DNA of 64,000 nt from Pseudogemmobacter humi (GTDB lineage Bacteria; Pseudomonadota; Alphaproteobacteria; Rhodobacterales; Rhodobacteraceae), in the NCBI RefSeq assembly GCF_900609055.1, contig NZ_UXAW01000048.1:62001-126000 (forward strand), in the 5' to 3' direction. The number at the start of each line of letters is the position of its first letter. Position 1 is the first letter of the stretch. Below are positions 10,968-60,387 of this stretch, piece after piece. A program made the position numbers and the translations under genes. A model generated the notes under the pieces. It searched no databases, was not told the DNA's origin, and worked only from the letters and a program-made list of their open reading frames with translations.

Positions 10968-11927
10968 ATCACGGTCAGTTCCGATGTCTTCCGTCTCGCC
11001 CAGGTCTTTACCATCTCGCGCGGCAGCCGGAGCGAGGCGAAGGTGCTGACGGTGCGGGTGACGCGCGGCGGCGTGAGCGGATGGGGCGAATGCGTGCCCT
11101 ATGCGCGGTACGGCGAGAGCCCGGAGAGCGTGGCGGCGCAGATCCGTGCTTTGCCCGAGGGGATCGGGCGGGCGGATTTGCAGCAGGCGCTGTCGCCGGG
11201 GGCGGCGCGCAATGCGGTGGATTGCGCTTTGTGGGATCTTGAGGCGAAGGCCGCCGGGCGGCGGGTCTGGGATCTGGCCGGGCGCCCGGCGCCGGGGGCG
11301 GTGACGACTGCCTTCACACTCTCGCTGGCCGAGCCTGAGGCGATGGAGGCGGCGGCGCAGGCGGCGGCGGCGCGGCCGGTCCTGAAGATCAAGCTCGGCA
11401 CCCCGGACGACATGCCCCGGCTGGAGGCGGTGCGGCGCGGGGCGCCGAAGGCACGGCTGATCGTCGATGCCAATGAGGGCTGGACGCCGGAGATCTACCG
11501 CGAACTGGCGCCCAGGCTGGTGCGGATGGGCGTGGCGCTGGTCGAGCAGCCCTTGCCCGCGGGCGAAGACGGTGCGCTGGCGGAGATCGGGCGGGTGCTG
11601 CCGGTCTGCGCCGACGAGAGCTGCCACGACCGCGACAGCCTCGCCCGGCTGCGCGGGCTTTACGATGTGGTGAATATCAAGCTCGACAAGACCGGGGGGC
11701 TGACCGAGGCTTTGGCCACCGCAGATGCGGCGCGCGGGATGGGGTTCGTGCTGATGGTCGGCTGCATGGTCGGATCAAGCCTGGCCATGGCGCCCGCCGT
11801 CTTGCTGGCGCAGGGCGCGGAGCATGTTGATCTTGACGGGCCGCTCTTGCTGGCGGAAGACCGGCCGCACCCGCTGCGTTACGATCTGTCGCAGCTTTAC
11901 CCGCCTGAGCGCGAACTCTGGGGATGA
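10965..11927 (+). CDS. dipeptide epimerase (L-Ala-D/L-Glu epimerase type, enolase superfamily)
   Basis: This mandelate racemase / muconate lactonizing-type protein has 320 residues and probably epimerises Ala-Glu-type dipeptides from peptidoglycan turnover. The catalytic lysines are in LKIKLG (about K141/K143) and NIKLDK (about K239). The metal ligands are in VDAN (D168), VEQP (E194) and ADES (D217). The ATG at 10965 was chosen because AAGG lies six bases before it; an in-frame GTG at 10959 is possible. The next gene, a D-amino-acid transaminase, starts four bases after its stop, which supports a role in D-Glu/D-Ala metabolism. Confidence 0.85.
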   Translation: MITVSSDVFRLAQVFTISRGSRSEAKVLTVRVTRGGVSGWGECVPYARYGESPESVAAQIRALPEGIGRADLQQALSPGAARNAVDCALWDLEAKAAGRRVWDLAGRPAPGAVTTAFTLSLAEPEAMEAAAQAAAARPVLKIKLGTPDDMPRLEAVRRGAPKARLIVDANEGWTPEIYRELAPRLVRMGVALVEQPLPAGEDGALAEIGRVLPVCADESCHDRDSLARLRGLYDVVNIKLDKTGGLTEALATADAARGMGFVLMVGCMVGSSLAMAPAVLLAQGAEHVDLDGPLLLAEDRPHPLRYDLSQLYPPERELWG

Positions 11928-11931
11928 GAGC

Positions 11932-12789
11932 ATGACCCGCACCGTTTATGTCAATGGCCAGTATCTGCCGGAAACCGAGGCCACGGTTTCGATCTTCGAC
12001 CGGGGTTTCCTGATGGCCGACGGGGTCTATGAGGTGACCTCGGTGCTGGACGGAAAACTCATCGATTTCGCGGGCCATCTGCGCCGGCTGCAACGCTCGC
12101 TGGACGAGCTGGAGATGAAGAACCCGCTGTCGGAAGACGAATGGCTGGCGGTGCATCGCGAGTTGGTGGCGCGGAACGGGGTGGAAGAGGGGATGGTCTA
12201 TCTCCAGGTCACCCGCGGCAATCCGGGCGACCGCGATTTCGCCTGGGCGGCGGACGTGGCGCCGACCGTTGTGCTGTTCACGCAAACCAAGCCCGGCCTT
12301 GCCGACAATCCGCAGGCCAGGACCGGGATCAGGGTGATTTCGGTGCCCGATATCCGCTGGGGCCGGCGCGACATCAAGACGGTGCAGCTTCTGTATCCGT
12401 CGATGGGCAAGATGATGGCGAAGAAGGCCGGGGTGGATGATGCCTGGTTCACCGAGGACGGTTTCGTGACCGAGGGCACCTCGAACAACGTCTATATCAT
12501 CAGGGGGAACAGGATCGTCACCCGGCCCCTGTCGTCCGAGATCCTGCACGGGATCACCCGCTCGGCCGTGCTGCGGTTCGCCGCCGAGGCGCAATATGAG
12601 GTCGAGGAGCGGGCCTTCACCGTCGAAGAGGCGCAGGGCGCGGATGAGGCGTTCCTGACCTCGGCCTCGGCCTTCGTGATGCCGGTGGTGGAGCTGGACG
12701 GCGCGGCGATCGGCACCGGCAAGCCCGGCCCGGTGGCGACCCGGCTGCGCGAGATCTACCTCGACGAGATGCGCAAGGCGGCGGTCTGA
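11932..12789 (+). CDS. dat: D-amino-acid transaminase (class IV PLP aminotransferase)
   Basis: This cytoplasmic fold-type IV aminotransferase has 285 residues. The PLP lysine lies in WGRRDIKTVQLL (K149), matching the RCDIK-type motif of Bacillus D-amino-acid transaminase. The TEGTSNNVY and SSEILHGITR phosphate-binding segments are also present. The open frame runs further upstream into the epimerase gene, but the family start is the ATG at 11932, with GAGAGC before it. It is paired with a dipeptide epimerase and ends at a strong terminator. A branched-chain or aminodeoxychorismate role is less likely but not excluded. Confidence 0.88.
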   Translation: MTRTVYVNGQYLPETEATVSIFDRGFLMADGVYEVTSVLDGKLIDFAGHLRRLQRSLDELEMKNPLSEDEWLAVHRELVARNGVEEGMVYLQVTRGNPGDRDFAWAADVAPTVVLFTQTKPGLADNPQARTGIRVISVPDIRWGRRDIKTVQLLYPSMGKMMAKKAGVDDAWFTEDGFVTEGTSNNVYIIRGNRIVTRPLSSEILHGITRSAVLRFAAEAQYEVEERAFTVEEAQGADEAFLTSASAFVMPVVELDGAAIGTGKPGPVATRLREIYLDEMRKAAV

Positions 12790-12806
12790 GCGCAGCGTCG
12801 CAAAGA

Positions 12807-12834
12807 AAAGGCCGCCTCACCGGGGCGGCCTTTC
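12807..12834 (+). terminator. intrinsic terminator after the D-amino-acid transaminase gene
   Basis: AAAGGCCGCC pairs with GGGCGGCCTTT around a TCACCG loop, with A-rich sequence before and T-rich after. It can work in both directions between the transaminase gene and the convergent RTX gene. Confidence 0.8.
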
Positions 12835-12855
12835 GCATTTCGGGGGCTGGAGGGA

Positions 12856-13866
12856 TCAGGCGGCCACGGGTGCGGGCGACAGATGCCGCGTCACCACGAA
12901 CTGATCGCTGTCCACCGCGTCGGGCAGGATGTCCTGCAACAGTACCTCGTCCTGGCCGTTCACGGTAACGATGGTATGGGCGCCCTCGGCGCGCAGTTCC
13001 ACCACCGGCAGTTCCGGCCCCTCCACCACATGGATATGCAGCGAATCCTCGGCCGGGTTGAAATCGGTGACGGTCATCAGCCCGATTCCGAGACCGCGGT
13101 GGTCCAGCTCGAACGTGTCGTGACCGGCGCCGCCCGTCAGCGTGTCGCCGCCATCGGCGGTCAGCCAGTCGTTGCCGTTGCCACCGAAGAGCTGGTCGTT
13201 GCCGACATGGCCCGGGATGCTGTCCACGGCGCGGATATAGTCGTTGCCGGAGCCGCCGTAGAACACGTCCGAGCCGCCGGACGAGCGCAGCGCATCGTTG
13301 CCGGTGTCGCCGTAGAGCGTGTCGTCGCCGATGCCGGTGTGCATGATGTCGCGGCCCGCGCCGCCGCGGGCGAACAGATCGCCATCGGCGCCCGAGGCGT
13401 CCAGAATGTCGTTGCCGTCGCCGAGGAAGATCCGGTCGTCGCCGTCGCCCGCGCCGACATCTACGCTGTCGTTGCCTGCGCCGGCCCAGATGTTGTCGTT
13501 CCCGGCGCCGCCAACGATGGAATCATCGCCGTCGCCGCCCTGGATCCGGTCGGCTCCGTCGCCGCCGTAGAGCGAGTCGTTGCCGGCGCCGCCGATCAGA
13601 TCGTCATCGCCCGCATCTCCCGAGAGCATGTCGTCGCCCTCGCCGCCGTCGATTCTGTCGTTGCCGCCGAGGCCGAACACTTCATCGTCACCGCCAAGCG
13701 CCATGATGTCATCGTCGCCCTGGGTTCCGGTCAGCAGATCCTCGCCCTCGGTGCCGCGGATGATGTTGTCGCTGCCGCCGTCGCCGCTGTTGTCGTCATC
13801 ATCGTCGTTCACGGCGATAACGACTCCGGCCACCAGCAACAGTGGCAGTAAGAACAACAGTTCCAT
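12856..13866 (-). CDS. RTX-repeat calcium-binding protein with N-terminal membrane segment
   Basis: This 336-residue protein starts with a hydrophobic segment (about residues 2-19, LLFLLPLLLVAGVVIAV). An Asp-rich patch and many GGxGxDxhx nonapeptide repeats (about 35-250) follow; these bind calcium and fold as a beta-roll. The C-terminal 85 residues are a non-repeat domain. It lacks toxin enzymatic motifs and probably is a cell-surface or matrix protein. Whether the N-terminus is a signal peptide or an anchor is unclear. A perfect CtrA-type site lies 17 bases upstream of the ATG. Confidence 0.85.
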   Translation of the reverse strand: MELLFLLPLLLVAGVVIAVNDDDDDNSGDGGSDNIIRGTEGEDLLTGTQGDDDIMALGGDDEVFGLGGNDRIDGGEGDDMLSGDAGDDDLIGGAGNDSLYGGDGADRIQGGDGDDSIVGGAGNDNIWAGAGNDSVDVGAGDGDDRIFLGDGNDILDASGADGDLFARGGAGRDIMHTGIGDDTLYGDTGNDALRSSGGSDVFYGGSGNDYIRAVDSIPGHVGNDQLFGGNGNDWLTADGGDTLTGGAGHDTFELDHRGLGIGLMTVTDFNPAEDSLHIHVVEGPELPVVELRAEGAHTIVTVNGQDEVLLQDILPDAVDSDQFVVTRHLSPAPVAA

Positions 13867-48407: not shown

Positions 48408-48450
48408 GCCCTGACGGGCGTCATCGCTGAGCGAAGAGGCCCGTCAGGGC
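48408..48450. terminator. inverted repeat between ribitol kinase and deoR genes
   Basis: GCCCTGACGGGC (48408-48419) and GCCCGTCAGGGC (48439-48450) are perfect 12-base arms with a 19-base spacer, in the gap between the two convergent genes and overlapping the deoR-type stop codon. It may end transcription in both directions; there is no T-run. Confidence 0.45.
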
Positions 48451-49235
48451 CGATGAGCGGACCCCGGGATCGACAGCGCCGCGCCGCCCTTGCGGATCGC
48501 GGCCAGCAGCACGCCCCCGGGCTCCTGGTCGGTGACCAGTGTCATCGCCCCGTGCCAGGGCGTCAGCAGCACCAGCGCGCGTTTGTCGAATTTGCCGTGA
48601 TCGGCCAGGATGAAGGACCGCTCGGCGCTGCGCAGCATCGCGGCATAGACCTCGCCCGCGCCCAGCATCGCCTCGCTTACCCCCTCGCCGTTCAGCCCCG
48701 AGGCGCCGATCAGCACCACCGGCGCGCGGTAGCGCTCCACCGCGCGGATCGTCTCGGGGCCGCAGACCATGCGTTCCTGCGCCTCGAACGTGCCGGGCAG
48801 GAGCACGATCTCGATCAGCGGATTGGCGGCGAGTTCCAGCGCCACCGGATAGGTGGGGGTGATCACCGTCAGCCGCCGGTCGATGCCGCGCAGCGCGCGG
48901 GCGAATTGCAGCATGGTGGCGCCGCCGCCCAGAAGCAGCGCCTCTTCCCCCGCCACCAGTTCCATCACATGCCCGGCGATGGCGCGGCGCTCGGCCACCT
49001 TCAGAAGCAGACGGTCGTTCAGCGCCGGCTCGAATCGGTTCGCGGCGCTGACCGCGCCGCCATAGGTGCGGCTGAGCCGGCCCAGGTGATCCAGTTCCGC
49101 CAGATCGCGGCGGATGGTTTCGGTCGAGACCGACAGGTCCTCGGCCAGCTGGTTCACCCGCAGCGCCGGGTTGCCTTCCAGCGCGGCGAGGATGCTGCTC
49201 TGCCGCAACTCTTTGCGCGACTTCACTGATTTCAC
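48444..49235 (-). CDS. DeoR/GlpR-family transcriptional regulator
   Basis: This 263-residue regulator has the N-terminal DeoR HTH (LRVNQLAEDLSVSTETIRRDL) and the C-terminal sugar-phosphate-isomerase-like effector domain (LLLGGGATMLQFARAL, SGLNGEGVSEAMLGAGEVY, ADHGKFDKRA). The ligand is usually a sugar phosphate. It is convergent with the ribitol operon and divergent from the BMC operon, so it could control either; the two dyads in its upstream region make the BMC operon the more likely target. Confidence 0.87.
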   Translation of the reverse strand: MKSVKSRKELRQSSILAALEGNPALRVNQLAEDLSVSTETIRRDLAELDHLGRLSRTYGGAVSAANRFEPALNDRLLLKVAERRAIAGHVMELVAGEEALLLGGGATMLQFARALRGIDRRLTVITPTYPVALELAANPLIEIVLLPGTFEAQERMVCGPETIRAVERYRAPVVLIGASGLNGEGVSEAMLGAGEVYAAMLRSAERSFILADHGKFDKRALVLLTPWHGAMTLVTDQEPGGVLLAAIRKGGAALSIPGSAHRP

Positions 49236-49257: not shown

Positions 49258-49334
49258 GGTTCGCCACAGGATCGCAGCGCCGCTGCGAACCTTCAAACAT
49301 ATTTTATGCCCGACTAGCAACAAATATATGTTGC
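49258..49334. promoter_or_regulatory. two dyads in the deoR-BMC intergenic region
   Basis: The first dyad is GGTTCGC (49258-49264) with GCGAACC (49285-49291), enclosing GCAGCG-C-CGCTGC (49274-49286). The second is GCAACA-AATATA-TGTTGC (49317-49334). The stretch 49292-49334 is unusually AT-rich and probably holds the promoter. Either dyad could be the operator of the adjacent DeoR-type regulator. Confidence 0.5.
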
Positions 49335-49381
49335 CAGATGAAGGATGTGGTGACAATCTCCGGTCAAACGGAGGTGCGCTC

Positions 49382-50662
49382 GTGTTCAACTACGGATACT
49401 TCAATTTCGATTCGAAGGCCGAAGTGCTCGACAAAGCCGTGGAATACTGGAACCCCGGCAAGACGAAGTTCTGGCAGGACGCGGGCATCGACCTGGTGAT
49501 CGACCGGCGCGAAGGATACTTCCTTTACGACATGTCCGGCCGGCGGCTGATCGACCTGCATCTCAATGGCGGGACTTACAATTTCGGCCATCGCCACCCC
49601 GAACTGATCGCGGTGCTGAAGTCGGCGCTGGACTATTTCGACATGGGCAACCACTGGTTCCCCTCGGTCGCCCGTTCCGCCTTTGCCGAGAAGCTGGTCA
49701 AGACCGCCGACGGCATGCGCTACGCCATCTTCGGCGCGGGCGGGGCCGAGGCTGTGGAAATCGCACTTAAAACTGCCCGATATACCACAAAGCGCAAGAA
49801 GATCGTCTCGATCATCAAAGGCTACCACGGCCATTCCGGCCTGTCGGTCGCCACCGGGGACGAGCGTTTCTCGAAGATCTTCCTCGCCGACAAGCCCGAC
49901 GAATTCCTCCAGGTGCCGTTCAACGACATCGACGCGCTGGACCGGGCTCTGCGCGGCCGCGACGTGGCCGCCTTCATCATCGAGACCATTCCGGCGACCT
50001 ACGGCTTCCCGCTGCCCGACGAGGGCTATCTGAAAGCCTGCCAGGATCTCTGCCGCCGCTACGGCACGCTCTACATCGCCGACGAGGTGCAGACCGGGCT
50101 GATGCGCACCGGCACGATGTGGGGCTGGCAGAGCTACGGGCTGGAGCCCGACATGTTCGTCACCGGCAAGGGGCTGGGCGGCGGGATCTATCCGATCTCG
50201 GCCTGCGTCGTCACCGAGAAATGCGGCGGCTGGCTGCATGAGGACGGCGCGGCGCATATCTCGACCTCGGGCGGCTCGGAACTGGGCTGCATCGTCGGCC
50301 ATCAGGTGATCGACATGCTTCAGCGCCCCGAGGTGATCTCGAACGTGCAATTCGTGGCAGAGTTCTTCCGCCGCAGCCTTTCCGAGATGATGGCGGTGCA
50401 TTCCGACATCTTCGTCGGCATCCGCCAGCGCGGCGTGATCCTGGGGCTGGAATTCGACCACCCTGAGGGCGCGGTGGCGGTGTCGCGGGCGCTTTATGAA
50501 CACGGGGTCTGGGCGATCTTCTCCTCGCTCGACAAGCGCGTGTTGCAGTTCAAGCCTGGGGTACTGCTGGATGCGGCCACCTGCCAGGAAATCATCGACC
50601 GGATGGAAGCGGCCATGCCGCGGGCGCGCGCGCTTCTGCGCAACATGCGCCGGGCGGCCTGA
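49382..50662 (+). CDS. class III PLP enzyme, predicted amino-alcohol-phosphate phospho-lyase of the BMC
   Basis: This fold-type I PLP enzyme of the class III aminotransferase family has 426 residues. The PLP lysine is in VTGKGLGGG (K263), with the ring-stacking ADEVQTG (D234) before it and the GAGGAEAVEIALK phosphate-binding segment. Some family members are phospho-lyases, acting on ethanolamine phosphate for example. With an amino-alcohol kinase and an aldehyde dehydrogenase in the same operon, conversion of 1-amino-2-propanol phosphate to propionaldehyde, ammonia and phosphate is the best inference. A transaminase role cannot be excluded. The GTG at 49382 follows GGAGG by seven bases. Confidence 0.82.
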   Translation: MFNYGYFNFDSKAEVLDKAVEYWNPGKTKFWQDAGIDLVIDRREGYFLYDMSGRRLIDLHLNGGTYNFGHRHPELIAVLKSALDYFDMGNHWFPSVARSAFAEKLVKTADGMRYAIFGAGGAEAVEIALKTARYTTKRKKIVSIIKGYHGHSGLSVATGDERFSKIFLADKPDEFLQVPFNDIDALDRALRGRDVAAFIIETIPATYGFPLPDEGYLKACQDLCRRYGTLYIADEVQTGLMRTGTMWGWQSYGLEPDMFVTGKGLGGGIYPISACVVTEKCGGWLHEDGAAHISTSGGSELGCIVGHQVIDMLQRPEVISNVQFVAEFFRRSLSEMMAVHSDIFVGIRQRGVILGLEFDHPEGAVAVSRALYEHGVWAIFSSLDKRVLQFKPGVLLDAATCQEIIDRMEAAMPRARALLRNMRRAA

Positions 50663-50676
50663 GGCGGGGGTAAGTC

Positions 50677-52239
50677 ATGCCGATTCAGCTTCACGACGAC
50701 AGCCCGCGCCTTGCGATCCCCGACCGGGCCGAATCCATCGCGCGGATGAAGATCGACCGCGCCACCTGGGCGGTGCGGGCCTTCTCGCGCTATGACCGGG
50801 CGGCGGTGATGAAGATCGCCCGCGCCGTGGCCGAGGCCGCGCATCAGGCGGCGCAGACCTATGCCGAATGGGCGGTGCGCGAGACCGGCATGGGCGTGGT
50901 GGAACACAAGAAGCTGAAGAACGAGCTTTCCGCCCATCCGCTGGTGGATTTCTACGAGGGGATGGATCTGGTGAACCCGCGCGTCGATCCGGCGCGCAAG
51001 ATGGTCGAGATCCCGAAGCCCGCGGGCGTGGTGCTGGCGCTGACACCGGCGACCAATCCGGTCTCGACGCTGTATTACAAGACCCTGCTCGCGGTGCTGT
51101 CGCGCAGCGCGGTGATCTTCAGCCCGCATCCGATGGCGAAAGCCTGCTGCAATGACGCGGCGGTGCGGCTTGAGGCGGCGGCGGTGGCGGCCGGCGCTCC
51201 CGCCGGGCTGATCCAGTGCATCGAAGAGCCCTCGGTCCCGCTGGTGCAGGCGCTGATGGCGTCCCCGAAGGTGCAGGTGATCCTGGCCACCGGCGGCAGC
51301 CCGATGGTGCGCGCGGCCTATGCCTCGGGCAATCCGGCGATCGGGGTGGGGCCGGGCAATGCGCCGGTCTATGTGGATCCCGACACCGACCAGAACGCGG
51401 CGGCGAAGCGGATCGTCGATTCGAAAAGTTTCGACAATTCGGTGCTTTGCACCAATGAGAGCGTGCTGATCTCGCTCGACCAGGACCGCAGCCGGCTGGA
51501 GCGCGCGCTTCGCGCCAACGGCGCGCATATCTGCAACGAGGCCGAGGTGGCGAAGCTGCGCTCCTGGCTGTTCCCCGAGGGGCATCTGAACACCGCCGCC
51601 GTGGGTAAATCGGCGGTCTGGATCGCGGCGCAGGCCGGGTTCCGGGTGGTGCCCTCGACCCGCATCCTGATCGCGCCGGTCGAGGTGGTGGGGCTGGACG
51701 AGCCCCTGTCGAAGGAAAAGCTGGCCCCGGTGCTGGCCTGGGCCACCGTGGGCACGTTCGAGCGCGCCACCGGCATGGCGCAGATGATCCTGCGGATGAG
51801 CGGCGCGGGCCATTCCGCCGCCTTCCACGGCGAGGATCCGCAGAAGGCGATGGATTTCGCCTCGGCGCTGCCGGTCTATCGCGTTGTGGTCAACGCGCCG
51901 TGCTCGCAAGGCGCGGCCGGGTTCGCGACGCATCTGGCGCCCTCGTTCATGATCGGCACCGGCTATGCCGGGCGGTCCTCGGTGGGCGAGAACATCGGGC
52001 CGCAGCATCTGGTGCACTGGACGCGGCTGGCCTGGAATTCGGACGCCGCGGTGCCGATGGGCGATTTCACCGATGTGCGCGCGCCGTTCGACGGGCCTTC
52101 CGCGCCGCCGCCCGCCGCGCCGCGGCCGGTGACGCTGGCCCCCGCGCCTGCACCCGCCAATGATGCCGGGATGGACCGCGACATGCTGCGCCAGCTCATC
52201 CTTCAGGAACTCCGTGAACTGACCAGGGGCCAGTCGTGA
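50677..52239 (+). CDS. CoA-acylating aldehyde dehydrogenase of the microcompartment
   Basis: This 520-residue enzyme resembles the acylating aldehyde dehydrogenases of microcompartments (PduP/EutE type), making acyl-CoA and NADH from an aldehyde such as propionaldehyde. The catalytic Cys258 is in DNSVLCTNE, and ATGGSPMVRAAYASG is the NAD-binding Gly-rich segment. The core ends near residue 470. A Pro/Ala linker (about 474-494) follows, then an amphipathic helix MDRDMLRQLILQELRELTRG (499-518), a classic encapsulation peptide. GGCGGGGG precedes the ATG. Its stop overlaps the first BMC-T gene (GTGA). Confidence 0.9.
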   Translation: MPIQLHDDSPRLAIPDRAESIARMKIDRATWAVRAFSRYDRAAVMKIARAVAEAAHQAAQTYAEWAVRETGMGVVEHKKLKNELSAHPLVDFYEGMDLVNPRVDPARKMVEIPKPAGVVLALTPATNPVSTLYYKTLLAVLSRSAVIFSPHPMAKACCNDAAVRLEAAAVAAGAPAGLIQCIEEPSVPLVQALMASPKVQVILATGGSPMVRAAYASGNPAIGVGPGNAPVYVDPDTDQNAAAKRIVDSKSFDNSVLCTNESVLISLDQDRSRLERALRANGAHICNEAEVAKLRSWLFPEGHLNTAAVGKSAVWIAAQAGFRVVPSTRILIAPVEVVGLDEPLSKEKLAPVLAWATVGTFERATGMAQMILRMSGAGHSAAFHGEDPQKAMDFASALPVYRVVVNAPCSQGAAGFATHLAPSFMIGTGYAGRSSVGENIGPQHLVHWTRLAWNSDAAVPMGDFTDVRAPFDGPSAPPPAAPRPVTLAPAPAPANDAGMDRDMLRQLILQELRELTRGQS

Positions 52240-52850
52240 CCGATCTTCGCGCCTTCATCTTCATCGACCAGCTCCAGCCGCAGACGCTTGCCTATACGTC
52301 GACCTGGATGCGCGGCACGCTGCCGCGCGCGCGGATGGCCGCGCAGATCATCGAGATCGCCCCGGGGCTGGATGTCGAGGCGCTGACCGACACCGTGCTG
52401 AAAAGCGCCGAGGTGCGGGCGGGCTTCCTGGTGGTCGAACGCCAGTTCGGCACGCTGCAATTCCACGCCTATTCCACCGCCGAGGTGCAGGCCGGGGCCG
52501 AGGCGGCGCTTGCCGCCATGGGCAAGAAACGCGACGAGGCCGAGCGGCCGAAGATTATGGCGTCGAAAATCGTCACCCGGGTCGACGACCAGCACGCTTT
52601 CCTGATGAACCGCAACAAGACCGGCTCGATGGTTTTGGGCGGCGAGAGCGTCTATCTCCTGGAATGCCAGCCCGCGGCTTATGCGATCCTTGCCTGCAAC
52701 GAGGCCGAGAAAGAGGCCGATATCAAGGTCATCGACATGCGGATGATCGGGGCGAACGGGCGGCTCTATCTGGCCGGGACCGAGGCCGACGTGCGCAATG
52801 CCCGCGACGCGGCAGAGCGCGCCCTGCGCGAGGCGGGGGCGACAGGATGA
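52236..52850 (+). CDS. BMC-T shell protein 1 (tandem BMC domain trimer)
   Basis: This 204-residue shell protein has two consecutive BMC-like domains (about residues 1-100 and 108-204). Three copies would form a pseudohexameric tile of the microcompartment facet. Segments like DQHAFLMNRNKTGSMVLGG and MIGANGRLYLAGTEADV are shared with the second BMC-T in this operon. The layout (LQPQTLAY start, IIEIAPGLDVEALTDTVLK strand-helix) looks permuted, as in EutL-like trimers (inference). The GTG start overlaps the aldehyde dehydrogenase stop; its stop overlaps the next gene (ATGA). Confidence 0.88.
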   Translation: MTDLRAFIFIDQLQPQTLAYTSTWMRGTLPRARMAAQIIEIAPGLDVEALTDTVLKSAEVRAGFLVVERQFGTLQFHAYSTAEVQAGAEAALAAMGKKRDEAERPKIMASKIVTRVDDQHAFLMNRNKTGSMVLGGESVYLLECQPAAYAILACNEAEKEADIKVIDMRMIGANGRLYLAGTEADVRNARDAAERALREAGATG

Positions 52851-53305
52851 ACGATCTGCGCGCCCTGATCCGCGATCTGCTCTCGGAAGAGATCGCCGCT
52901 CTGCGCGCCGAGATTCTCGGCGGGACGCAGGCCGAGCGGGTCGCCGTGGGCAATGAGGCGGAACTGACGGCTTTCGCGCTGAACATCGCGCGCCGGGCGC
53001 AGGATCCGGGGTTCGTCTCCGCGCTGGAAGCGGGCCGGATCCGCTATGCTCCGGCGCACACCGCCGCATATGCCCCGGCTTTGGTTCCCGCCGCCGCGCC
53101 GCGCGCGGCACCGCCGGCGGCTCTGGTCGCGACCGTGCCGCCTTCGGTGCCGGAACTGCGCAAGGGGCTGATCACCGAACGCGATATCGCCGCCGTGCCC
53201 GAGGGCGAGCCGCGGCTGCGCATCACAAAAACCGCGCGGCTGACGCCCCTTGCGGGCGACGAGGCCCGCCGCCGCGGCATCAGGATCGAAAGGACACTGG
53301 CATGA
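52847..53305 (+). CDS. BMC-associated protein with amphipathic N-terminus and EutQ-like module
   Basis: This 152-residue protein starts with an amphipathic helix (MNDLRALIRDLLSEEIAALR), similar in character to encapsulation peptides. A short helical region (about 30-65) and an Ala/Pro linker (66-100) follow. The C-terminal module (103-148) reads LITERDIAAVPEGEPRL and LTPLAGDEARRRGIRIER, which resembles the N-terminal part of EutQ but without the cupin domain. Function unknown; an adaptor between cargo and shell is one possibility. It overlaps both neighbours by four bases, between BMC-T and BMC-P. Confidence 0.78.
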   Translation: MNDLRALIRDLLSEEIAALRAEILGGTQAERVAVGNEAELTAFALNIARRAQDPGFVSALEAGRIRYAPAHTAAYAPALVPAAAPRAAPPAALVATVPPSVPELRKGLITERDIAAVPEGEPRLRITKTARLTPLAGDEARRRGIRIERTLA

Positions 53306-53571
53306 TAAGGGCGCGCGTCAGCGGCAGGCTCTGGTCCACCCGCCATATCGGCACGCTGCCCACCGGGGCGTTGCTGGAAGTCGAAACCGAAACCGGGGCG
53401 AAGCTGATCGCCTTCGACCCTCTGGGCTGTGCCGAGGGCGAGGCGGTGCTGGTCACGCAGGGCTCGGTCGCGGCGGGATGGTTCACCGACCGTCAGGCCC
53501 CGATCGACGCGCTGATCATCGGCTCGATCGACGAAGAATCCGCCGGGAAACCGGCAGCGAAACGCAAGTAA
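53302..53571 (+). CDS. BMC-P shell vertex protein (EutN/CcmL family)
   Basis: This 89-residue protein is of the EutN/CcmL type, whose pentamers cap the vertices of the microcompartment shell. It shows the beta-barrel pattern RARVSGRLWSTRHIGTLP and AFDPLGCAEGEAVLVTQGS, ending with ALIIGSID. The C-terminal tail is basic. The ATG overlaps the stop of the previous gene. It is the only vertex protein in the locus, so one type of pentamer would serve all vertices. Confidence 0.92.
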   Translation: MIRARVSGRLWSTRHIGTLPTGALLEVETETGAKLIAFDPLGCAEGEAVLVTQGSVAAGWFTDRQAPIDALIIGSIDEESAGKPAAKRK

Positions 53572-53583
53572 GGGAGTTCTCAA

Positions 53584-53865
53584 ATGGCTAATCTTGCAAT
53601 CGGAATGATCGAAACCAAAGGCTATGTCCCCGCGCTCTCGGCTGCGGATGCCATGGTCAAGGCCGCCAATGTCGAGATCATCGCCCGCAACGAAGTGGGC
53701 GGCGGTCTGGTCTCGGTGGTGGTGCGCGGCGATGTGGGCGCGGTCAAGGCCGCGACCGAGGCCGGGGCAGAGGCCGCCGCTGCGGTGGGCGAAGTCACCG
53801 CCGTTCATGTGATCCCGCGCCCGCATGCCGACCTGGCCAAGCATTTCGACGCGGTGAAGGGCTGA
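53584..53865 (+). CDS. BMC-H shell protein (hexameric facet tile)
   Basis: This 93-residue single-domain BMC protein forms hexamers tiling the facets. It starts [27 protein letters not shown] (first residues shown as [17 protein letters not shown]) with the edge Lys in the usual place. The pore loop is VGGGLV, and it ends [14 protein letters not shown], the canonical tail. A strong AAGGGAG ribosome-binding site fits high expression. It is the only BMC-H gene in the window. Confidence 0.95.
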
Positions 53866-53895
53866 GGCCCGGACGCGCGCATGAGGAACTGAGGC

Positions 53896-54519
53896 ATGAC
53901 AGAGCTTCGCGTCTATCTTCCCATCGAGGATCTTCAGCCCCAGTTCGCGGCTTATCTTTCCTCGCCCACCAGGGCGAGGGGATACCCGCCCTTCGCGGGC
54001 CAGCATTCGCTGATCATCGAGGTCTCGCCGGCGCTGGCGATCCACCGGATAACCGATCTCGCGCTGAAATCCGCGCCCGAGATGGAGCCGGGCATCCTTT
54101 ACACCGAACGTCAGTTCGGCCTGCTGGAGCTGCATTCCGACCGGATGGAGGATCTGACCGCCGCGGGTGAGGCGATCCTGCAAGGCATCGGCGCGCAGCC
54201 CGGCGATCAGCTTAAGCCGCAGATCCTGTATCACGATATTATCGAAGACCTGTCGGATCAGCATGCTATCATCCTGAACCGCTCGCGCGATGCCTCGATT
54301 CTGGTGCCGGGCGTGGCGCTCCTGATCTACGAGATGGCCCCGGCGCTGTTCGCCTGCGTGGCCGCGAACGAGGCCGAGAAGGCCGCGCCCAATGCCGTGA
54401 TCAACGATGTGCAGATGATGGGTGCGACCGGCCGTCTGTTCATCTCGGGCACGCTGGAGGACATGAGGATCGCACGCGACACGATCACCGCGAAGCTGGA
54501 GGCCATCACGGGAAGATGA
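53896..54519 (+). CDS. BMC-T shell protein 2 (tandem BMC domain trimer)
   Basis: This 207-residue tandem-domain shell protein is a paralogue of the first BMC-T, with matching anchors at LQPQ (residues about 13-16), TERQFG, DQHAIILNRSRD, NEAEK and MMGATGRLFISGT. Identity looks about one third by eye. Having two different trimers may give the shell two pore types. It follows the BMC-H gene after 30 bases, and a GAGG precedes the ATG. Confidence 0.88.
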   Translation: MTELRVYLPIEDLQPQFAAYLSSPTRARGYPPFAGQHSLIIEVSPALAIHRITDLALKSAPEMEPGILYTERQFGLLELHSDRMEDLTAAGEAILQGIGAQPGDQLKPQILYHDIIEDLSDQHAIILNRSRDASILVPGVALLIYEMAPALFACVAANEAEKAAPNAVINDVQMMGATGRLFISGTLEDMRIARDTITAKLEAITGR

Positions 54520-54526
54520 CCTGAAA

Positions 54527-54550
54527 GCGGCCACCGGCAAAAGGGGCCGC
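54527..54550 (+). promoter_or_regulatory. hairpin between shell and transporter genes
   Basis: GCGGCC (54527-54532) pairs with GGCCGC (54545-54550) around a 12-base loop, just past the second BMC-T stop. It may reduce readthrough from shell genes into the transporter genes. Weak evidence. Confidence 0.3.
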
Positions 54551-54609
54551 AGCACGACGCGAGAGGCGGATCAACCGCCCGGATACGCCATCAACATGGG
54601 AGTAGACAG

Positions 54610-55740
54610 ATGATTACGAGAAGACAGTTCTCGCTGGGAGCCGCCGGTATGGCCGGTCTTTCGGCCCTTTCGCTGCCTGGCCGTGCCCTGGCTGACCGTA
54701 ACAATCAGCTCAATATCCTCTGCTGGGAAGGCTACAATTCCGACACGGTGCTGAACCCGTTCCGCGCCGCGCATCCCGGCGCCACTGTGCGCGCCGAAAG
54801 CGGCACTTCGGACCCCGAGATGATCAACCGCCTGCGCGCGGGCGAGATCGGCACCTGGGATCTGATCAACGTGAACCAGCCCTGGGCGCGGGGGGAACTC
54901 CTGCGCGACAACCTGATCAAACCGCTGAGCAAAGAGCGGTTCATGCCCTGGTTCGACAAGATGACCCCGGAATTCGCGAAACCCTATGCGCTGGCCTTCG
55001 CGGACAACGGCGATCTTCTGGGTATGCCGCAGCGCTACGGGCCGTTCTCTTTCGTGGTCAATACCGACAAGATCAGCCAGGACTCGGCCGAGGAACAGGG
55101 CTGGAACCTGTTCTTCGACCCGGCGATGAAGGGCCGCTACGGGCTTCTCACCTACGACAACTGGAACGTGATCCACCTTTGTCTTGCCGCCGGGCTGAAC
55201 CCGTTCCAGCCGGTCGAAGGCGCGGATGCCGAAAAATTCGCCGAGACCTGCAAGCAGATCGTCGGCGGCGCCAAGCTGATGACCGACGATCTGGTGGCGA
55301 TGAACACCGCGCTGATCAACGGCGAGATCGACGCCTATTTCACCGGCGGCACCTATACCGCCTCGCCCGCGCGCTATGACGGGGCCACCTTCGTGCGCGC
55401 GATCACGCCGCGCTCGGGGCCGGTCGATGGCAAGGGCGGCGTGGTCTGGGTCGAGCTGACCTCGGCGGTGAACAACCCCGATCCGTCGTCTCTGGCCGAG
55501 GATTTCCTCGAATTCGTGCAGCAGCCCGAGATATGCAAGGCGGTGGCCTTCTCGGAGGGCACCTACAATCCGATCGCCCAGATGGGCGACCCGGAGGTCA
55601 TGGCGCTGTTCGACGAAGAGATGCTGGAGGCGATCCAGTTCGACACGCTGGAAGCCGAACTCGCGCGCTGCCTCGAATTCGATGTGGTGCCTTCGTATGA
55701 CGCCCTGCTGGCGACTTATGTCGCTGCCCGCCGCGGCTGA
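54610..55740 (+). CDS. polyamine-type ABC transporter substrate-binding protein (PotD-like) of the BMC locus
   Basis: This 376-residue periplasmic binding protein of the spermidine/putrescine (PotD) family has a Tat-type signal (TRRQFSLGAAGMAGLSALSL, cleavage near ALA-DR). The family core follows (LNILCWEGYNSD, DLINVNQPWARGELL, GPFSFVVNTDKIS). In this operon its ligand is probably a small amine such as aminoacetone or 1-amino-2-propanol (inference). The ATG follows GGGAGT. A strong hairpin follows the gene. Confidence 0.87.
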   Translation: MITRRQFSLGAAGMAGLSALSLPGRALADRNNQLNILCWEGYNSDTVLNPFRAAHPGATVRAESGTSDPEMINRLRAGEIGTWDLINVNQPWARGELLRDNLIKPLSKERFMPWFDKMTPEFAKPYALAFADNGDLLGMPQRYGPFSFVVNTDKISQDSAEEQGWNLFFDPAMKGRYGLLTYDNWNVIHLCLAAGLNPFQPVEGADAEKFAETCKQIVGGAKLMTDDLVAMNTALINGEIDAYFTGGTYTASPARYDGATFVRAITPRSGPVDGKGGVVWVELTSAVNNPDPSSLAEDFLEFVQQPEICKAVAFSEGTYNPIAQMGDPEVMALFDEEMLEAIQFDTLEAELARCLEFDVVPSYDALLATYVAARRG

Positions 55741-55762
55741 GCCCCGGCGCCTCGCGTAACAT

Positions 55763-55789
55763 CCTGCCGGGCTCTTCGCGCCCGGCAGG
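55763..55789 (+). terminator. strong hairpin after the PotD-like gene
   Basis: CCTGCCGGGC (55763-55772) pairs perfectly with GCCCGGCAGG (55780-55789) around TCTTCGC, followed by CGGTTTTCC. Between a binding-protein gene and its ATPase gene this probably works as a partial terminator or mRNA stabiliser. Confidence 0.6.
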
Positions 55790-55819
55790 CGGTTTTCCCG
55801 CCCCAATTGAGAGAGACCG

Positions 55820-56920
55820 ATGCTCGTCCAGCCTTTCGTGCGGATCGATAATGTCACCAAGCGTTTCGGACGCTTCACCGCGCTGGACCGGATCAGCCTC
55901 GACATCGCCGAGGGCGAGTTTCTGACCATCGTCGGCCCCTCGGGCAGCGGTAAATCCACGCTGATCCGGCTGCTCGTCGGCATCGACGACGTGACCGAGG
56001 GCACGATCAGCCTGAACGGCAGCCGGATCGACACCGTGCCCGCGAACAAGCGGCCGACCTGCATGGTGTTCCAGTCGCTGGCGCTGTTCCCGCATATGAG
56101 CGTGGGGAAGAACATCGAATTTCCGCTGAAGCTGAAAAAGGTTACGCCCGCAGACCGCCGCGCCCGCGCGCTGGAGCTGCTGCGGCTCCTGCGGTTGCCG
56201 GAAGATTACTACGGCAAGATGATCGGCCAGCTTTCCGGCGGCGAGCGGCAGCGGGTGGCTCTGGCCCGCGCGCTGGCTTTCGATCCCGAGATCATCGTCT
56301 TCGACGAGCCCCTGTCGGCGCTGGATTACCGGCTGAGGAAGACGCTGGAGAAAGAGCTGAAGGATCTGCACGGCCGCACCGGCAAGACCTTCGTCTACAT
56401 CACCCATTCGCTGGAGGAGGCGATGGTGATGTCCGACCGCATCGCCATCATGCGCCGCGGCCGGTTCGAGCAGATCGCCAGCGCCGAAGAGATCTACTCC
56501 CGCCCGGTCAGCCGTTTTGTGGCCAGCTTCATGGGCGAGGTGAATCTGTTCGACCTGGCGGTGGACGGCGCCGGCCAGCCGGTCTGGCAGGGCGCGGGTG
56601 TCACCGCCGCCCCCGGCGCGCTGACGCTGGCCCCGGGATGGCAGGGCGCGCTGATGGTGCGCCCGGAACTGGTGCGTTTCCTGGCCCCTGGGCAAAGCGC
56701 CGATTTCACCGTGCAGGGCCAGATGGCGGCGGAATACGCGCTCGGCTCGCGCATCCAGTATTCGGTGCAGACCGAAGGCGGCATGGTGATCACCGTCGAG
56801 CGCCCGTTCGAGGCCCGGCACCACGGCGCCCCGGGCGCGCCGGTGGCTTTGGGCTGGGACCGCGATGCGGTGCATCCGATCGCCGGAACCGGGGAAGGGG
56901 GCGGCGATGGAAAGGCTTGA
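55820..56920 (+). CDS. polyamine-type ABC transporter ATP-binding protein (PotA-like)
   Basis: This 366-residue ATPase has Walker A GPSGSGKST, signature LSGGERQRVALARAL, Walker B IIVFDEPLSALD and the switch His in ITHS. The C-terminal TOBE-like domain runs from about residue 240. It energises the adjacent permease pair. Its end overlaps the first permease gene by 14 bases. Confidence 0.9.
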   Translation: MLVQPFVRIDNVTKRFGRFTALDRISLDIAEGEFLTIVGPSGSGKSTLIRLLVGIDDVTEGTISLNGSRIDTVPANKRPTCMVFQSLALFPHMSVGKNIEFPLKLKKVTPADRRARALELLRLLRLPEDYYGKMIGQLSGGERQRVALARALAFDPEIIVFDEPLSALDYRLRKTLEKELKDLHGRTGKTFVYITHSLEEAMVMSDRIAIMRRGRFEQIASAEEIYSRPVSRFVASFMGEVNLFDLAVDGAGQPVWQGAGVTAAPGALTLAPGWQGALMVRPELVRFLAPGQSADFTVQGQMAAEYALGSRIQYSVQTEGGMVITVERPFEARHHGAPGAPVALGWDRDAVHPIAGTGEGGGDGKA

Positions 56921-57761
56921 ACACCGGCTCGGCTTTCTGACCGGCCTGCCGATCATCGTCCTCTTGCTGATCAGCTTCATCATGCCTTTGTTCGTGGTGG
57001 CGGGCTTCGCCATCATGCCGCAGCGCGTGTTCGAGCTGGCGCATCTGCCGGATTTCTCGTCCTTCGCGGTGATCTGGGAGCAGGGCTATTACAAATCGCT
57101 GCTGCGCTCTCTGGGGCTGGCGTTCCTGACCACGGCGATCCTGTTCGTGGTCTGCTGGCCGCTGGCTTACGGCATGGCCAAGGTCTTCGGCCGCTTCACC
57201 CTGGTGATCACGCTGGCCGTGGTGCTGATCCTGTTCGTCTCGGAAAACATCCGCCTGTTCGGCTGGACGCTTTCGCTGATGAAGGGCGGGCTGATCGAGG
57301 GCCATCTGCGCGCCTGGACCGGGCTGAGCTTCGAGAGCCCGCTCTATGACTGGCCGGTGATCGTCTTCGGCATGGCTTACGTCTATTTCCCCTTCATGCT
57401 GTTCCCGCTGGCCCAGGGGATTTCGCTGGTGCCCGACGACGCGCGGCTTGCGGCCTCGGACCTTGGCGCCAGCCCGGCGCGGATCCTGTTCGAGATCGAA
57501 ATGCCGCTCGCCGCGCCCGGGATCATGGTCGGCAGCCTCCTGACCTTCGTGCTGTCCGCCGGCGCGGTGGCCGAGGCGAAACTCCTCGGCGGGCGCTCGG
57601 TCGTGGTGCTGACCGACGATGTGGAAAGCGCCTTCACCTTCGGGCAGAACTGGCCGCTCGGCTCGGCGCTCTCGCTGATGCTGATCGTGATCGTCGCGGT
57701 CCTGGCCATGGTGCCGATCAGCCGGATCAATCTGGATGCGATCATGGGGAGGAAGCGATGA
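56907..57761 (+). CDS. polyamine-type ABC transporter permease (PotB-like)
   Basis: This 284-residue inner-membrane protein has about six transmembrane helices and the EAA loop (DDARLAASDLGASPARILFEI, shown as AASDLGASPARILFEI). The ATG at 56907 follows GGGGAAGGGGG and lies inside the end of the ATPase gene. Its stop overlaps the next permease gene (ATGA). Confidence 0.88.
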   Translation: MERLEHRLGFLTGLPIIVLLLISFIMPLFVVAGFAIMPQRVFELAHLPDFSSFAVIWEQGYYKSLLRSLGLAFLTTAILFVVCWPLAYGMAKVFGRFTLVITLAVVLILFVSENIRLFGWTLSLMKGGLIEGHLRAWTGLSFESPLYDWPVIVFGMAYVYFPFMLFPLAQGISLVPDDARLAASDLGASPARILFEIEMPLAAPGIMVGSLLTFVLSAGAVAEAKLLGGRSVVVLTDDVESAFTFGQNWPLGSALSLMLIVIVAVLAMVPISRINLDAIMGRKR

Positions 57762-58552
57762 AACCCGTTTCCAACACCACAAGGATCGCGCTTTACCTCT
57801 ACGGTTTCCTGATCATCGCGGTGCTTTATCTGCCGCTGGTCTCGGTCGGCTTCGCCTCGGTCTCGAAAGCGCGCTATCTGACCTTTCCGATCAACCGCTA
57901 CACCAGCGAATGGATGGTCCAGGCCGTCACCAGCCCCAATGTCCACGACCTGGTGCTGACATCGCTGAAGATCGCCGTCTCGGTCACGGTGCTGTCGATG
58001 GTGATCGGCTTCTTCGGCGCGCTGGCCTTCGCGCGGTTCCAGTGGAAATACCGCAACCTGTTCCAGAAGCTGATCCTTCTGCCGATCTTCTTCCCGCAGA
58101 CGGTCCTGGGGCTGGCGCTTTTGATCTGGTTCTCGGCGCTTGGCATCCAGCCGAGCTGGAAAACGGCCGTGGTCGCGCATCTGGTGTGGATCGCGCCGAT
58201 CACCACGCTGATCATCGCCATCCGCGCCTATGGGTTCGACCCCGCGCTGGAAGAGGCCGCGCGCGACATGGGGGCCTCGACGCTGACCATCCTGCGCGAG
58301 GTGACGCTGCCTTTGCTGATGCCCGGGGTGATCTCGGCGGGGCTGTTCGCCTTCCTGCTGTCCTGGGGCAATTTCCCGCTTTCGCTGTTCACCACCGGCG
58401 TCGATTCGACGCTGCCGAAATGGCTCTATGCGCGGATGGTCTCGGGCTACACGCCGCAGATCCCGGCGCTTGGGGTGCTGTCGGTGGTGGGATCGGCGCT
58501 TCTGATGACCATCGGGTTCCTCGTCTTCCGCTGGACCCGCCGCCGCGCCTGA
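57758..58552 (+). CDS. polyamine-type ABC transporter permease (PotC-like)
   Basis: This 264-residue second permease subunit has about six transmembrane helices and an EAA loop (EEAARDMGASTLTILREV). It overlaps the PotB-like gene by four bases. The dehydrogenase gene starts 35 bases downstream, so transporter and enzymes are in one operon. Confidence 0.88.
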   Translation: MKPVSNTTRIALYLYGFLIIAVLYLPLVSVGFASVSKARYLTFPINRYTSEWMVQAVTSPNVHDLVLTSLKIAVSVTVLSMVIGFFGALAFARFQWKYRNLFQKLILLPIFFPQTVLGLALLIWFSALGIQPSWKTAVVAHLVWIAPITTLIIAIRAYGFDPALEEAARDMGASTLTILREVTLPLLMPGVISAGLFAFLLSWGNFPLSLFTTGVDSTLPKWLYARMVSGYTPQIPALGVLSVVGSALLMTIGFLVFRWTRRRA

Positions 58553-58587
58553 GCACGCGCGGACCAACCATAACAGGGAGAAAGACC

Positions 58588-59367
58588 ATGCTGACATCAC
58601 TGAAAGGCCGCAGCGTCATCGTCACCGGCGGCTCGAAAGGGATCGGGCGCGGCATCGCGCGGGTGTTCTCGCGCGCGGGCGTCAAACTGACCATCGTCGG
58701 CCGCGACCGCGCCGCTCTGGATGCGGCGGTGGAGGAGATGAACGCCGCCGGTGCCACCGCCCGCGCCGCCACCTGCGACGTGAGCGATTACGACCAGGTG
58801 CAGCGCATGGTCGATGAGGCGGCCGAGGCCCAGGGCGGGCTGCATGTGGTCTGCGCCAATGCCGGATCCTTCCCGCAGGTGAAGATGGTCGACATGACCT
58901 CCGCCGACTGGGATGCGATGATGGCGAACAACCTGCGCTCGACCTTCCTCTGCGTCAAAGCCGCGATCCCGCATTTCGAAAAGGCGGGCCGCGGGCGGGT
59001 GGTCGTCACCTCGTCGATCACCGGGCCGGTGACGGGCTATCCGGGCTGGGCGCATTACGGGGCCTCGAAGGCCGGGCAGCTTGGCTTCATCAAGACCGCC
59101 GCGATGGAACTGTCGCGCTACAACACCACGATCAACGCGGTGATGCCGGGCAATATCGTGACCGAGGGTCTGCAAGGGCTGGGCGAGGATTACCTGAAGA
59201 CCATGGCCGCCTCGATCCCGCTGAAACGGCTGGGCGATGTCGAGGATATCGGCAATGCGGCTTTGTTCTTTGCCTCGGACGAGGCCGCCTATATCACCGG
59301 CCAGCAGATCATCGTCGACGGCGGCCAGATCCTGCCGGAATCGCTGGAAGCTCTGGAATCGATCTGA
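58588..59367 (+). CDS. SDR dehydrogenase, predicted 1-amino-2-propanol dehydrogenase
   Basis: This 259-residue short-chain dehydrogenase has the cofactor motif TGGSKGIG (residues 13-20), NAG at 91-93, and the catalytic Ser143, Tyr157 and Lys161 (YGASK). The C-terminus ends VDGGQILPESLEALESI. In the Mycobacterium RMM/AAUM operon the SDR interconverts aminoacetone and (S)-1-amino-2-propanol. The same role is inferred here from operon content, not from substrate residues. GGGAG precedes the ATG at 58588; the frame extends upstream into potC without similarity. Confidence 0.82.
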   Translation: MLTSLKGRSVIVTGGSKGIGRGIARVFSRAGVKLTIVGRDRAALDAAVEEMNAAGATARAATCDVSDYDQVQRMVDEAAEAQGGLHVVCANAGSFPQVKMVDMTSADWDAMMANNLRSTFLCVKAAIPHFEKAGRGRVVVTSSITGPVTGYPGWAHYGASKAGQLGFIKTAAMELSRYNTTINAVMPGNIVTEGLQGLGEDYLKTMAASIPLKRLGDVEDIGNAALFFASDEAAYITGQQIIVDGGQILPESLEALESI

Positions 59368-59379
59368 GGGGGGAAAGTC

Positions 59380-60387
59380 ATGGCTCATGACACCATGCCG
59401 CTTCAGGAGATCCTGAAGCATCTGGAGCGGCTGGCCAACGACTCGCTGCCGCTCTGGCCGGTGCCTGAGGGGGCGACGGCGCGGCTGATCAACGTCTCGG
59501 AGAACGCGACTTATCTGGTCGAGGCCGGGGAGTTCCGCTCGGTCCTGCGCATTCACCGCCCGGCCTATCACAGCCGCCGCGGGATCGGGCAGGAACTGGC
59601 CTGGGCGCGGGCCTTGTCCGACAGCGGCATGGTGCTGACGCCGCCCCCCATTGCCGGGCGGAACGGCGATCTGGTGCAGGAGGGGCGCACCCCCGGCCTG
59701 CCGGAACCGCGCTTCATGGTGATGTTTCAGTTCGCCGAAGGCCGCCAGCCCGACGAGAACGAGGATCTGGTGGCGCCGTTCGAGGGCCTCGGCGCCATCG
59801 CGGCGCGCACCCATATCCATTCGCAGACCTGGCAAAAGCCGGAACCGCTGGAGCGGCTGGTCTGGGACACCGATGCCGTTTTCGGCCCGCGCGCGAACTG
59901 GGGCAACTGGCGCGATGCGCCGAACGTCACCCCCGCGGTGCGCGAGGTGCTGGAACAGGTCGAGACGACGATCTGCGCCCGGCTCGCCGCCTTCGGCAAG
60001 GGGGCGGATCGTTACGGGCTGATCCATGCCGATATGCGGCTGGCCAATCTCTTGATCGACGGCGAGACCACGCGGCTGATCGACTTCGACGATTGCGGGC
60101 TGGGCTGGTTCCTTTACGATTTCGCCGCCGGGATCAGCTTCATGGAAGACCACCCCCAGGTGCCCGCCCTGCGCGCGGCCTGGGTGAAGGGCTACCGCTC
60201 GGTCCGGGCGCTGTCGGATGACGAGGAACGCGAGATCGACACCTTCATCATGCTGCGCCGCATGGCGCTGCTGGCCTGGATCGGCAGCCATATCGAGGCG
60301 CCCGAACCCCAGGCGATGGCGCCGCATTTCGCCCGCGTCTCGGCGGAACTGGGCCGCGCCTATCTGGCGAAATTCGCACCGGCCTGA
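59380..60387 (+). CDS. APH-fold kinase, predicted (S)-1-amino-2-propanol kinase
   Basis: This 335-residue kinase belongs to the aminoglycoside phosphotransferase / choline kinase fold. It has the Brenner motif HADMRLANLL (catalytic D218, N223) and the metal-binding DFDD (D235). In RMM/AAUM loci a protein of this type phosphorylates (S)-1-amino-2-propanol, making the substrate of the phospho-lyase. It should not be read as an antibiotic-resistance gene. GGGGGGAAAG precedes the ATG. Its last 28 bases overlap the end of the convergent GT2 gene. Confidence 0.84.
   Translation: MAHDTMPLQEILKHLERLANDSLPLWPVPEGATARLINVSENATYLVEAGEFRSVLRIHRPAYHSRRGIGQELAWARALSDSGMVLTPPPIAGRNGDLVQEGRTPGLPEPRFMVMFQFAEGRQPDENEDLVAPFEGLGAIAARTHIHSQTWQKPEPLERLVWDTDAVFGPRANWGNWRDAPNVTPAVREVLEQVETTICARLAAFGKGADRYGLIHADMRLANLLIDGETTRLIDFDDCGLGWFLYDFAAGISFMEDHPQVPALRAAWVKGYRSVRALSDDEEREIDTFIMLRRMALLAWIGSHIEAPEPQAMAPHFARVSAELGRAYLAKFAPA

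Follow-up and report, generated by a model that had tools for sequence, protein, structure and literature searches.

Which amine feeds the bacterial microcompartment (BMC) encoded in Pseudogemmobacter humi, and what chemistry takes place at its pyridoxal phosphate (PLP) step? The genes in question lie within a stretch of 64,000 nt (contig NZ_UXAW01000048.1, positions 62,001 to 126,000), referred to here as the window, and all feature coordinates are positions within it. Thirteen genes form one unbroken run on the + strand (49382-60387), and every frame is open and intact in the open reading frame (ORF) translations of this span. In order, they encode a class III PLP enzyme, an aldehyde dehydrogenase (AldDH), a BMC-T shell protein, a protein of 152 amino acids, a BMC-P, a BMC-H, a second BMC-T, a four-gene ATP-binding cassette (ABC) importer, a short-chain dehydrogenase/reductase (SDR) and a kinase of the aminoglycoside phosphotransferase (APH) fold. 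Sequence comparison places the locus, as a Rhodobacteraceae-type member, in the RMM (Rhodococcus and Mycobacterium microcompartment) family and most likely in the type termed RMM2 in the 2021 BMC catalogue. A scheme in which a DeoR-regulated RMM2-type operon converts an amino alcohol to propionyl-CoA by way of a kinase and a phospho-lyase is, taken as a whole, considered likely.

Gene content and RMM membership

A first-pass annotation, made from the sequence without database searches, had already described an operon of 13 same-strand genes, and this reading is confirmed. The Pfam assignments (Aminotran_3, Aldedh, BMC at 52236-52850 and 53584-53865, EutN_CcmL, adh_short and APH) agree with its domains, and the coupled starts and stops that it mentioned were located as 4-base overlaps at four junctions (52236/52239, 52847/52850, 53302/53305 and 57758/57761). 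Chance is excluded as the origin of the arrangement because 74 of the 80 related loci carry the seven core genes (PLP enzyme, AldDH, the shell proteins and the 152-residue protein) in uniform order and on the same strand. The 80 loci are the best of 400 relatives from a scan of genome contigs, and all counts out of 80 have this scope.

A gene was counted as present on a tblastn match over a set identity (PLP enzyme, BMC-T and kinase 50%, AldDH and BMC-P 40%, 152-residue protein 20%, BMC-H 60%, SDR 55%), which does not imply a full-length gene; in one locus (L112) a broken PLP gene was also scored as present. By this measure the AldDH, the first BMC-T (BMC-Ta) and the 152-residue protein occur in all 80 loci and the complete set of thirteen genes in 55. 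Five of the six loci short of the full core are contigs of less than 8 kb, and the sixth, L114, carries a PLP enzyme of another clade. Judged by their titles, the 80 relatives come mostly from Alpha- and Gammaproteobacteria and represent many genera. Within a family sample of 295 genomes, P. humi included, BMC-Ta found a match at E <= 0.001 in 15, at an identity of at least 56% in eight and of 40% or less in seven; the latter are taken as other BMC-T types. Seven loci were drawn from other genomes of the family. Six of these have all seven core genes, followed in five by the importer genes in the order of the window. A more distant RMM-like locus (L034, family genome G215, 9696-13383) has a BMC-Ta of 54% identity and relatives of the BMC-T, BMC-H, BMC-P and AldDH; no match to the PLP enzyme, SDR or kinase was found within 19.5 kb of it.

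Membership of the RMM family is clearest in the two BMC-T proteins. BMC-Ta (52236-52850), of the CcmP/CsoS1D-like class, matches 5l39, whose title is RMM microcompartment shell protein MSM0275, at 272 bits, the next PDB entry reaching 158. The second, BMC-Tb (53896-54519), matches 5suh, the MSM0271 protein, with 285 bits against 148. From these gaps, each BMC-T of the window has its own partner in the RMM of Mycobacterium smegmatis, one to one. BMC-Tb has no Pfam match at E 0.001 and matches NCBIfam CcmP at 4.5e-52, below the cut-off of that model. The vertex protein BMC-P (53302-53571; Pfam EutN_CcmL, 1e-18) and the facet protein BMC-H (53584-53865; Pfam BMC, 5.2e-26) complete the shell. The translation of BMC-H contains KAAN and PRPH, given as basal BMC-H motifs in the available text of PMC8217296. 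All four shell proteins named in the first-pass annotation are thus borne out by Pfam, NCBIfam and PDB matches. In the P. humi genome (4.47 Mb in 143 contigs, listed as 100% complete), a search with PF00936 returned two matches, both in the RMM locus; as it missed the BMC-Tb of this very locus, it is not a full census of the BMC proteins there.

The AldDH (50677-52239; Pfam Aldedh) finds its best NCBIfam and PDB matches among CoA-acylating enzymes, with the NCBIfam models for AdhE and acetylating acetaldehyde dehydrogenase matched under cut-off, and a CoA-acylating activity is predicted. Its C-terminal helix recurs in all 17 relatives shown and ranks first within the protein in a hydrophobic-moment scan; it is the encapsulation peptide that the first-pass annotation had seen in the sequence, and it is predicted to direct the enzyme to the shell. 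A phosphotransacylase of the PduL type was found neither among the 13 genes by Pfam nor in the P. humi genome, while controls gave matches in Escherichia coli and Thermotoga maritima.

The SDR (58588-59367), labelled by NCBIfam only as a FabG-like SDR, is closest in the PDB to 6ci8/6ci9 (308 bits), followed by 3pk0 (280) and 3rih (261). For the kinase (59380-60387; Pfam APH, 1.4e-25), 6ef6 scores 257 bits and the next sequence 55. We take 6ci8, 6ci9 and 6ef6 to be the RMM enzymes that Mallette and Kimber described from M. smegmatis, the PDB titles giving only 3-oxoacyl-ACP reductase and aminoglycoside phosphotransferase; the closest match of the SDR is presumably their 1-amino-2-propanol dehydrogenase. 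In a tree, 70 RMM-locus SDRs (69 from related loci and that of the window) join 6ci8 ahead of 3pk0 and 3rih and apart from 11 SDR paralogues of the same genome, with a support of 98/79 that falls just under the starred level in an analysis whose bootstrap had not settled. The first-pass annotation had made its reading depend on whether these two enzymes group with those of other substrates. The tree places the SDR with 6ci8, and for the kinase the gap in score, rather than a tree, points to 6ef6. Two BMC-T of the RMM kind, a BMC-P, a basal BMC-H, a class III PLP enzyme, an SDR and an APH kinase are found in one locus, and the RMM/AAUM identity first given to it is supported gene by gene. The SDR is a probable aminoacetone/1-amino-2-propanol oxidoreductase and its neighbour a probable 1-amino-2-propanol kinase.

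Chemistry at the PLP step

In the proposed pathway, the polyamine-type ABC importer would take in a small amine and the SDR would interconvert aminoacetone and 1-amino-2-propanol, the latter being phosphorylated by the kinase to 1-amino-2-propanol O-phosphate. The class III PLP enzyme (49382-50662, GTG start; Pfam Aminotran_3, 6.3e-71), a probable amino-alcohol-phosphate phospho-lyase, would then eliminate phosphate and ammonia to yield propionaldehyde. The AldDH, docked to the shell through its C-terminal encapsulation peptide, would oxidise this to propionyl-CoA, and the shell of two BMC-T, one BMC-H and one BMC-P would retain the aldehyde. The 152-residue protein may be a second encapsulated component.

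The PLP step is the point on which this scheme turns. In PatA, the Arg of the IRIEPPL sequence presumably binds the carboxylate of the keto acid, a role known from OAT-type enzymes. At this position the RMM enzymes have a Gln (Gln389 in the window) in 76 of 76 aligned rows, 70 of them distinct, which comprise the window and 75 of 87 loci once late-start, no-stop and short rows were dropped. By this residue the RMM PLP enzyme departs from what is expected of an active class III aminotransferase, and PatA has the Arg. Three aligned sequences of the phospho-lyase type, as well as 5g4i and 6tor, have a Lys there. We take 5g4i and 6tor to be phospho-lyases of the ETNPPL/A1RDF1 type, which resemble the RMM enzyme in having the same class III PLP fold and the same loss of the presumed keto-acid-site Arg; they differ from it in the Lys in place of Gln and in forming a separate clade, with which the RMM enzymes do not group. 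Two RMM loci, however, carry a PLP enzyme of the phospho-lyase type instead: Rhodococcus jostii pRHL2 (L115) and a Vibrio (L114). Their enzymes group with 5g4i, a named phospholyase (100/97), and with 6tor, an ethanolamine-phosphate phospho-lyase (100/99), and the R. jostii enzyme carries a predicted encapsulation peptide of its own, a C-terminal helix that matches the AldDH helix of this locus exactly.

Given the invariant Gln and the two natural enzyme swaps, the phospho-lyase route is the first candidate, and the retention of the kinase in 48 of 50 long-flank loci bears on it as well. Judged from such sequence evidence, a kinase followed by a phospho-lyase is probably the route in use. Among the long-flank loci, 45 have the binding protein, SDR and kinase, two the SDR and kinase, one the kinase alone and two none of these; this set excludes L043, L063, L097, L112 and L114, which have shorter flanks or no RMM PLP gene and are without SDR and kinase matches. 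As a separate observation, the P. humi genome encodes, off the microcompartment contig, a class III PLP enzyme of the phospho-lyase clade beside an APH-type kinase gene (L118, G000:C109:6662-9013).

Several points weigh against the proposed pathway. The loss of the Arg is no proof of lyase activity, since three of the six other class III paralogues aligned from the same genome (L122, L123 and L125) also lack it. In the PLP tree the RMM clade joins PatA and not the phospho-lyases (95/87), in a tree that drew the program's long-branch warning and has PatA as its sole named transaminase, and the best PDB matches of the enzyme are aminotransferases. The SDR is missing at the 55% level from 15 of the 80 loci and the kinase at the 50% level also from 15; seven and eight of these, respectively, lie on short contigs or reach a contig end. 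With longer flanks, L039, L041, L043, L063, L097, L112 and L114 lack both genes and L072 is without the SDR. No threonine dehydrogenase passes the cut-off in the P. humi genome, which leaves an internal source of aminoacetone unsupported and makes uptake the likelier source of the substrate. In the available text of PMC6620236, where the same pathway family is described as Aut, the proteobacterial clusters are without a kinase, which the window locus has.

Some of these points would fit an RMM compartment with a transaminase, in which 1-amino-2-propanol (or aminoacetone) becomes lactaldehyde (or methylglyoxal) and the AldDH forms the acyl-CoA. Such a route has been proposed in the portions available of PMC6620236, from 1-amino-2-propanol to lactaldehyde, and of PMC4207490, and the nearest named relatives of the PLP enzyme are indeed transaminases. 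It is nonetheless unlikely: the presumed keto-acid-binding Arg is replaced by Gln in all 76 RMM rows, the conserved same-family kinase has no natural early place in a transamination, and where the PLP enzyme is exchanged it is for one of the phospho-lyase type.

The logic of kinase and phospho-lyase might also be correct and the main substrate be another amino alcohol, such as ethanolamine (giving acetyl-CoA), or a related compound. The resemblance of the AldDH to acetylating acetaldehyde dehydrogenases and the loci that lack an SDR would suit this, as would R. jostii pRHL2, where a 28.5-kb stretch has no match to the window SDR and an annotated ethanolamine permease lies 2.8 kb past the last shell gene. 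The window SDR, in contrast, is most like the presumed 1-amino-2-propanol dehydrogenase and an SDR is kept in 47 of the 50 long-flank loci, which leaves a different main substrate rather unlikely. EutB was not found in the P. humi genome, in a search whose controls gave matches. That the locus is silent or decayed is highly improbable, with 13 intact frames, a gene set that recurs across many genera and no point found in support. The phosphorylated amino-alcohol pathway to propionyl-CoA remains the preferred reading.

A wider reading is put forward tentatively, as one that may well not hold. The RMM would be a general, B12-independent metabolosome for amino-alcohol phosphates, with a constant core of PLP phospho-lyase, AldDH, shell and a protein, so far without a name, bearing an encapsulation peptide, fed by a kinase and fitted with an exchangeable front end. 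The front ends would be a polyamine-type importer with SDR, an amino-acid permease with kinase, or a sugar-type ABC importer with an amidase and choline-kinase-like proteins. The RMM PLP clade would have gained its phospho-lyase activity independently of the ETNPPL clade, whose members take its place in R. jostii pRHL2 and the Vibrio. The window offers a compact, complete RMM locus in a single operon, with relatives in cultured genera, Tabrizicola, Defluviimonas and Roseovarius among them; the RMM substrate and the PLP step, for which the literature available gives competing routes, could be resolved in such relatives.

The 152-residue protein, regulation and variant loci

The 152-residue protein (52847-53305) was listed in the first-pass annotation as unknown. 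It has no Pfam or NCBIfam match, in keeping with that label, but it is conserved, with relatives in all 80 loci and one in R. jostii at 29% (E 1.6e-9), and it begins in the manner of an encapsulation peptide. An N-terminal helix of this kind (LRxxIRxxLxEE) is followed by a small alpha/beta unit and, after a variable linker, by a C-terminal unit in which TPLA is invariant among the 61 of 88 sequences taken into the alignment. The AlphaFold2 model has a mean predicted local distance difference test score of 85.5 and a predicted template modelling score of 0.40, so that the pieces are confident and their mutual arrangement is not. A Foldseek search with it returned nothing at E <= 0.001 (best 0.14). 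A second structural comparison reached a Z of at most 5.2, for residues 95-152 against Cas1, eIF5B, chaperonin and ligase domains; a likeness of this size is that of common arrangements, and no function is drawn from it. With a profile of the tail, the N-termini of EutT and EutQ from E. coli come in second and third place among 1396 ORFs, directly behind the protein itself, although weakly by E-value (0.12 and 0.8). The hydrophobic-moment scan gives its top rank to the C-terminal end of the protein rather than to the N-terminal helix, so the latter is like an encapsulation peptide by pattern and prediction only. A role as an encapsulated adaptor would be a guess.

The first-pass range was correct for the 13 genes and left out a divergent gene and the palindrome between it and the operon. 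The gene (48444-49235, - strand) encodes a DeoR-family repressor (Pfam DeoRC 7.6e-32, HTH_DeoR 9.2e-16). The near-perfect palindrome, CTAGCAACA-AATATA-TGTTGCCAG (49314-49337), is its probable, predicted operator, through which it may control the operon. A DeoR relative of at least 40% identity is present in 33 of the 80 loci. Of 34 distinct upstream regions from DeoR-linked loci, 22 contain CAACAT or ATGTTG in the 130 bp ahead of the PLP gene, where mononucleotide shuffles, which reflect base composition only, lead one to expect 2.2; as the loci are related, the excess is not a probability. The exact palindromes upstream of the PLP gene differ among loci, and the recurrent signal is the looser CAACA/TGTTG only.

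The importer lies between the shell genes and the SDR. It consists of a periplasmic binding protein (54610-55740; NCBIfam PotD 2.4e-07, far under cut-off, and Pfam SBP_bac_6 just under cut-off), a PotA-like ATPase (55820-56920; 5.8e-89, under the equivalog cut-off) and two permeases, PotB-like (56907-57761; 3.6e-29) and PotC-like (57758-58552; 1.1e-35), both under cut-off. In the P. humi genome, three matches over cut-off to acyl-CoA mutase genes, which would serve to use propionyl-CoA, are present.

Among the related loci, four have an RMM core beside a sugar-type ABC importer and an amidase: L041 (12289-17337), L097 (253-6109), L114 (1-6701) and L039 (13411-14994). L097 encodes choline-kinase/APH-like proteins and L041 an APH fragment; in L114 the amidase and kinases were judged by eye, as was the remainder of L039. 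From their gene content, the four are possibly a subtype with another substrate. In L112 (5275-8426), from the Olavius algarvensis Gamma 3 endosymbiont, the PLP gene is split in two, with transposase (rve) ORFs lying between the fragments and next to them, and this copy looks broken. The block BMC-T/hypothetical/BMC-P/BMC-H stands twice in R. jostii RHA1 pRHL2 (L115, 11007-19490), with the same protein accessions.

Three loci from metagenome-assembled genomes, L094 (Candidatus Neomarinimicrobiota), L095 (Gammaproteobacteria) and L096 (Sulfurimonas), are very alike and adjoin a phage integrase. Both PF13356 and PF00589 are matched in L096 and L095, and PF00589 in L094, where the start of the ORF is beyond the contig end. 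A DDE transposase ORF separates the ATPase and binding-protein genes in L094, and similar-looking ORFs occur in L095. The likeness of the three may reflect either recent spread or misbinned contigs.

Comparison with published systems

In the accessible text of the 2021 catalogue (PMC8217296), the phylum outliers of RMM2 are an epsilonproteobacterium and a Candidatus Marinimicrobia, with PF13356 and PF00589 integrases adjoining. The window relatives L096 and L094, with their integrases, resemble these two outliers and may be the same records, and the window operon would correspond gene by gene to the RMM2 profile of the catalogue. It has been reported, in the text available of PMC8156839, that Paracoccus yeei TT13 has an RMM2; the locus of Paracoccus haematequi (L040) has the gene order of the window and a BMC-Ta about 93-94% identical. 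Beyond that single P. yeei sentence, no work on the RMM2 enzymes of Rhodobacteraceae was found in the literature available, in which the work of Mallette and Kimber is represented by citing papers. The scheme from aminoacetone to propionyl-CoA is cited from them in PMC8156839.

The label RMM2 is in part used differently across papers: in the portion available, the 2014 taxonomy (PMC4207490) defines it by diol dehydratase genes, and none is among the 13 genes of the window. PF02286 had no match in the P. humi genome, nor in the control genomes used, so that absence from the genome as a whole does not follow.

Both BMC-T proteins are common to the window and to the RMM1 (AAUM, Aut) of M. smegmatis and Rhodococcus, as seen in the M. 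smegmatis PDB entries. The BMC-H, BMC-P, AldDH (47%), a relative of the 152-residue protein and the kinase (40%) are also shared with R. jostii pRHL2. An SDR and a class III PLP enzyme have been reported for the cluster of R. erythropolis in the available text of PMC6620236, according to which RMM1 differs in having a GabP-type permease and a GntR regulator, as opposed to the polyamine-type ABC importer and DeoR of the window. The system belongs to a BMC type that has been published before, also from a Paracoccus, and is not a new kind of system. To what is known of it, modest additions are made here: the active-site Gln of the PLP enzyme and its natural swaps, the conserved 152-residue protein with its start resembling an encapsulation peptide, the divergent DeoR gene with its palindrome and the variant loci without an SDR.

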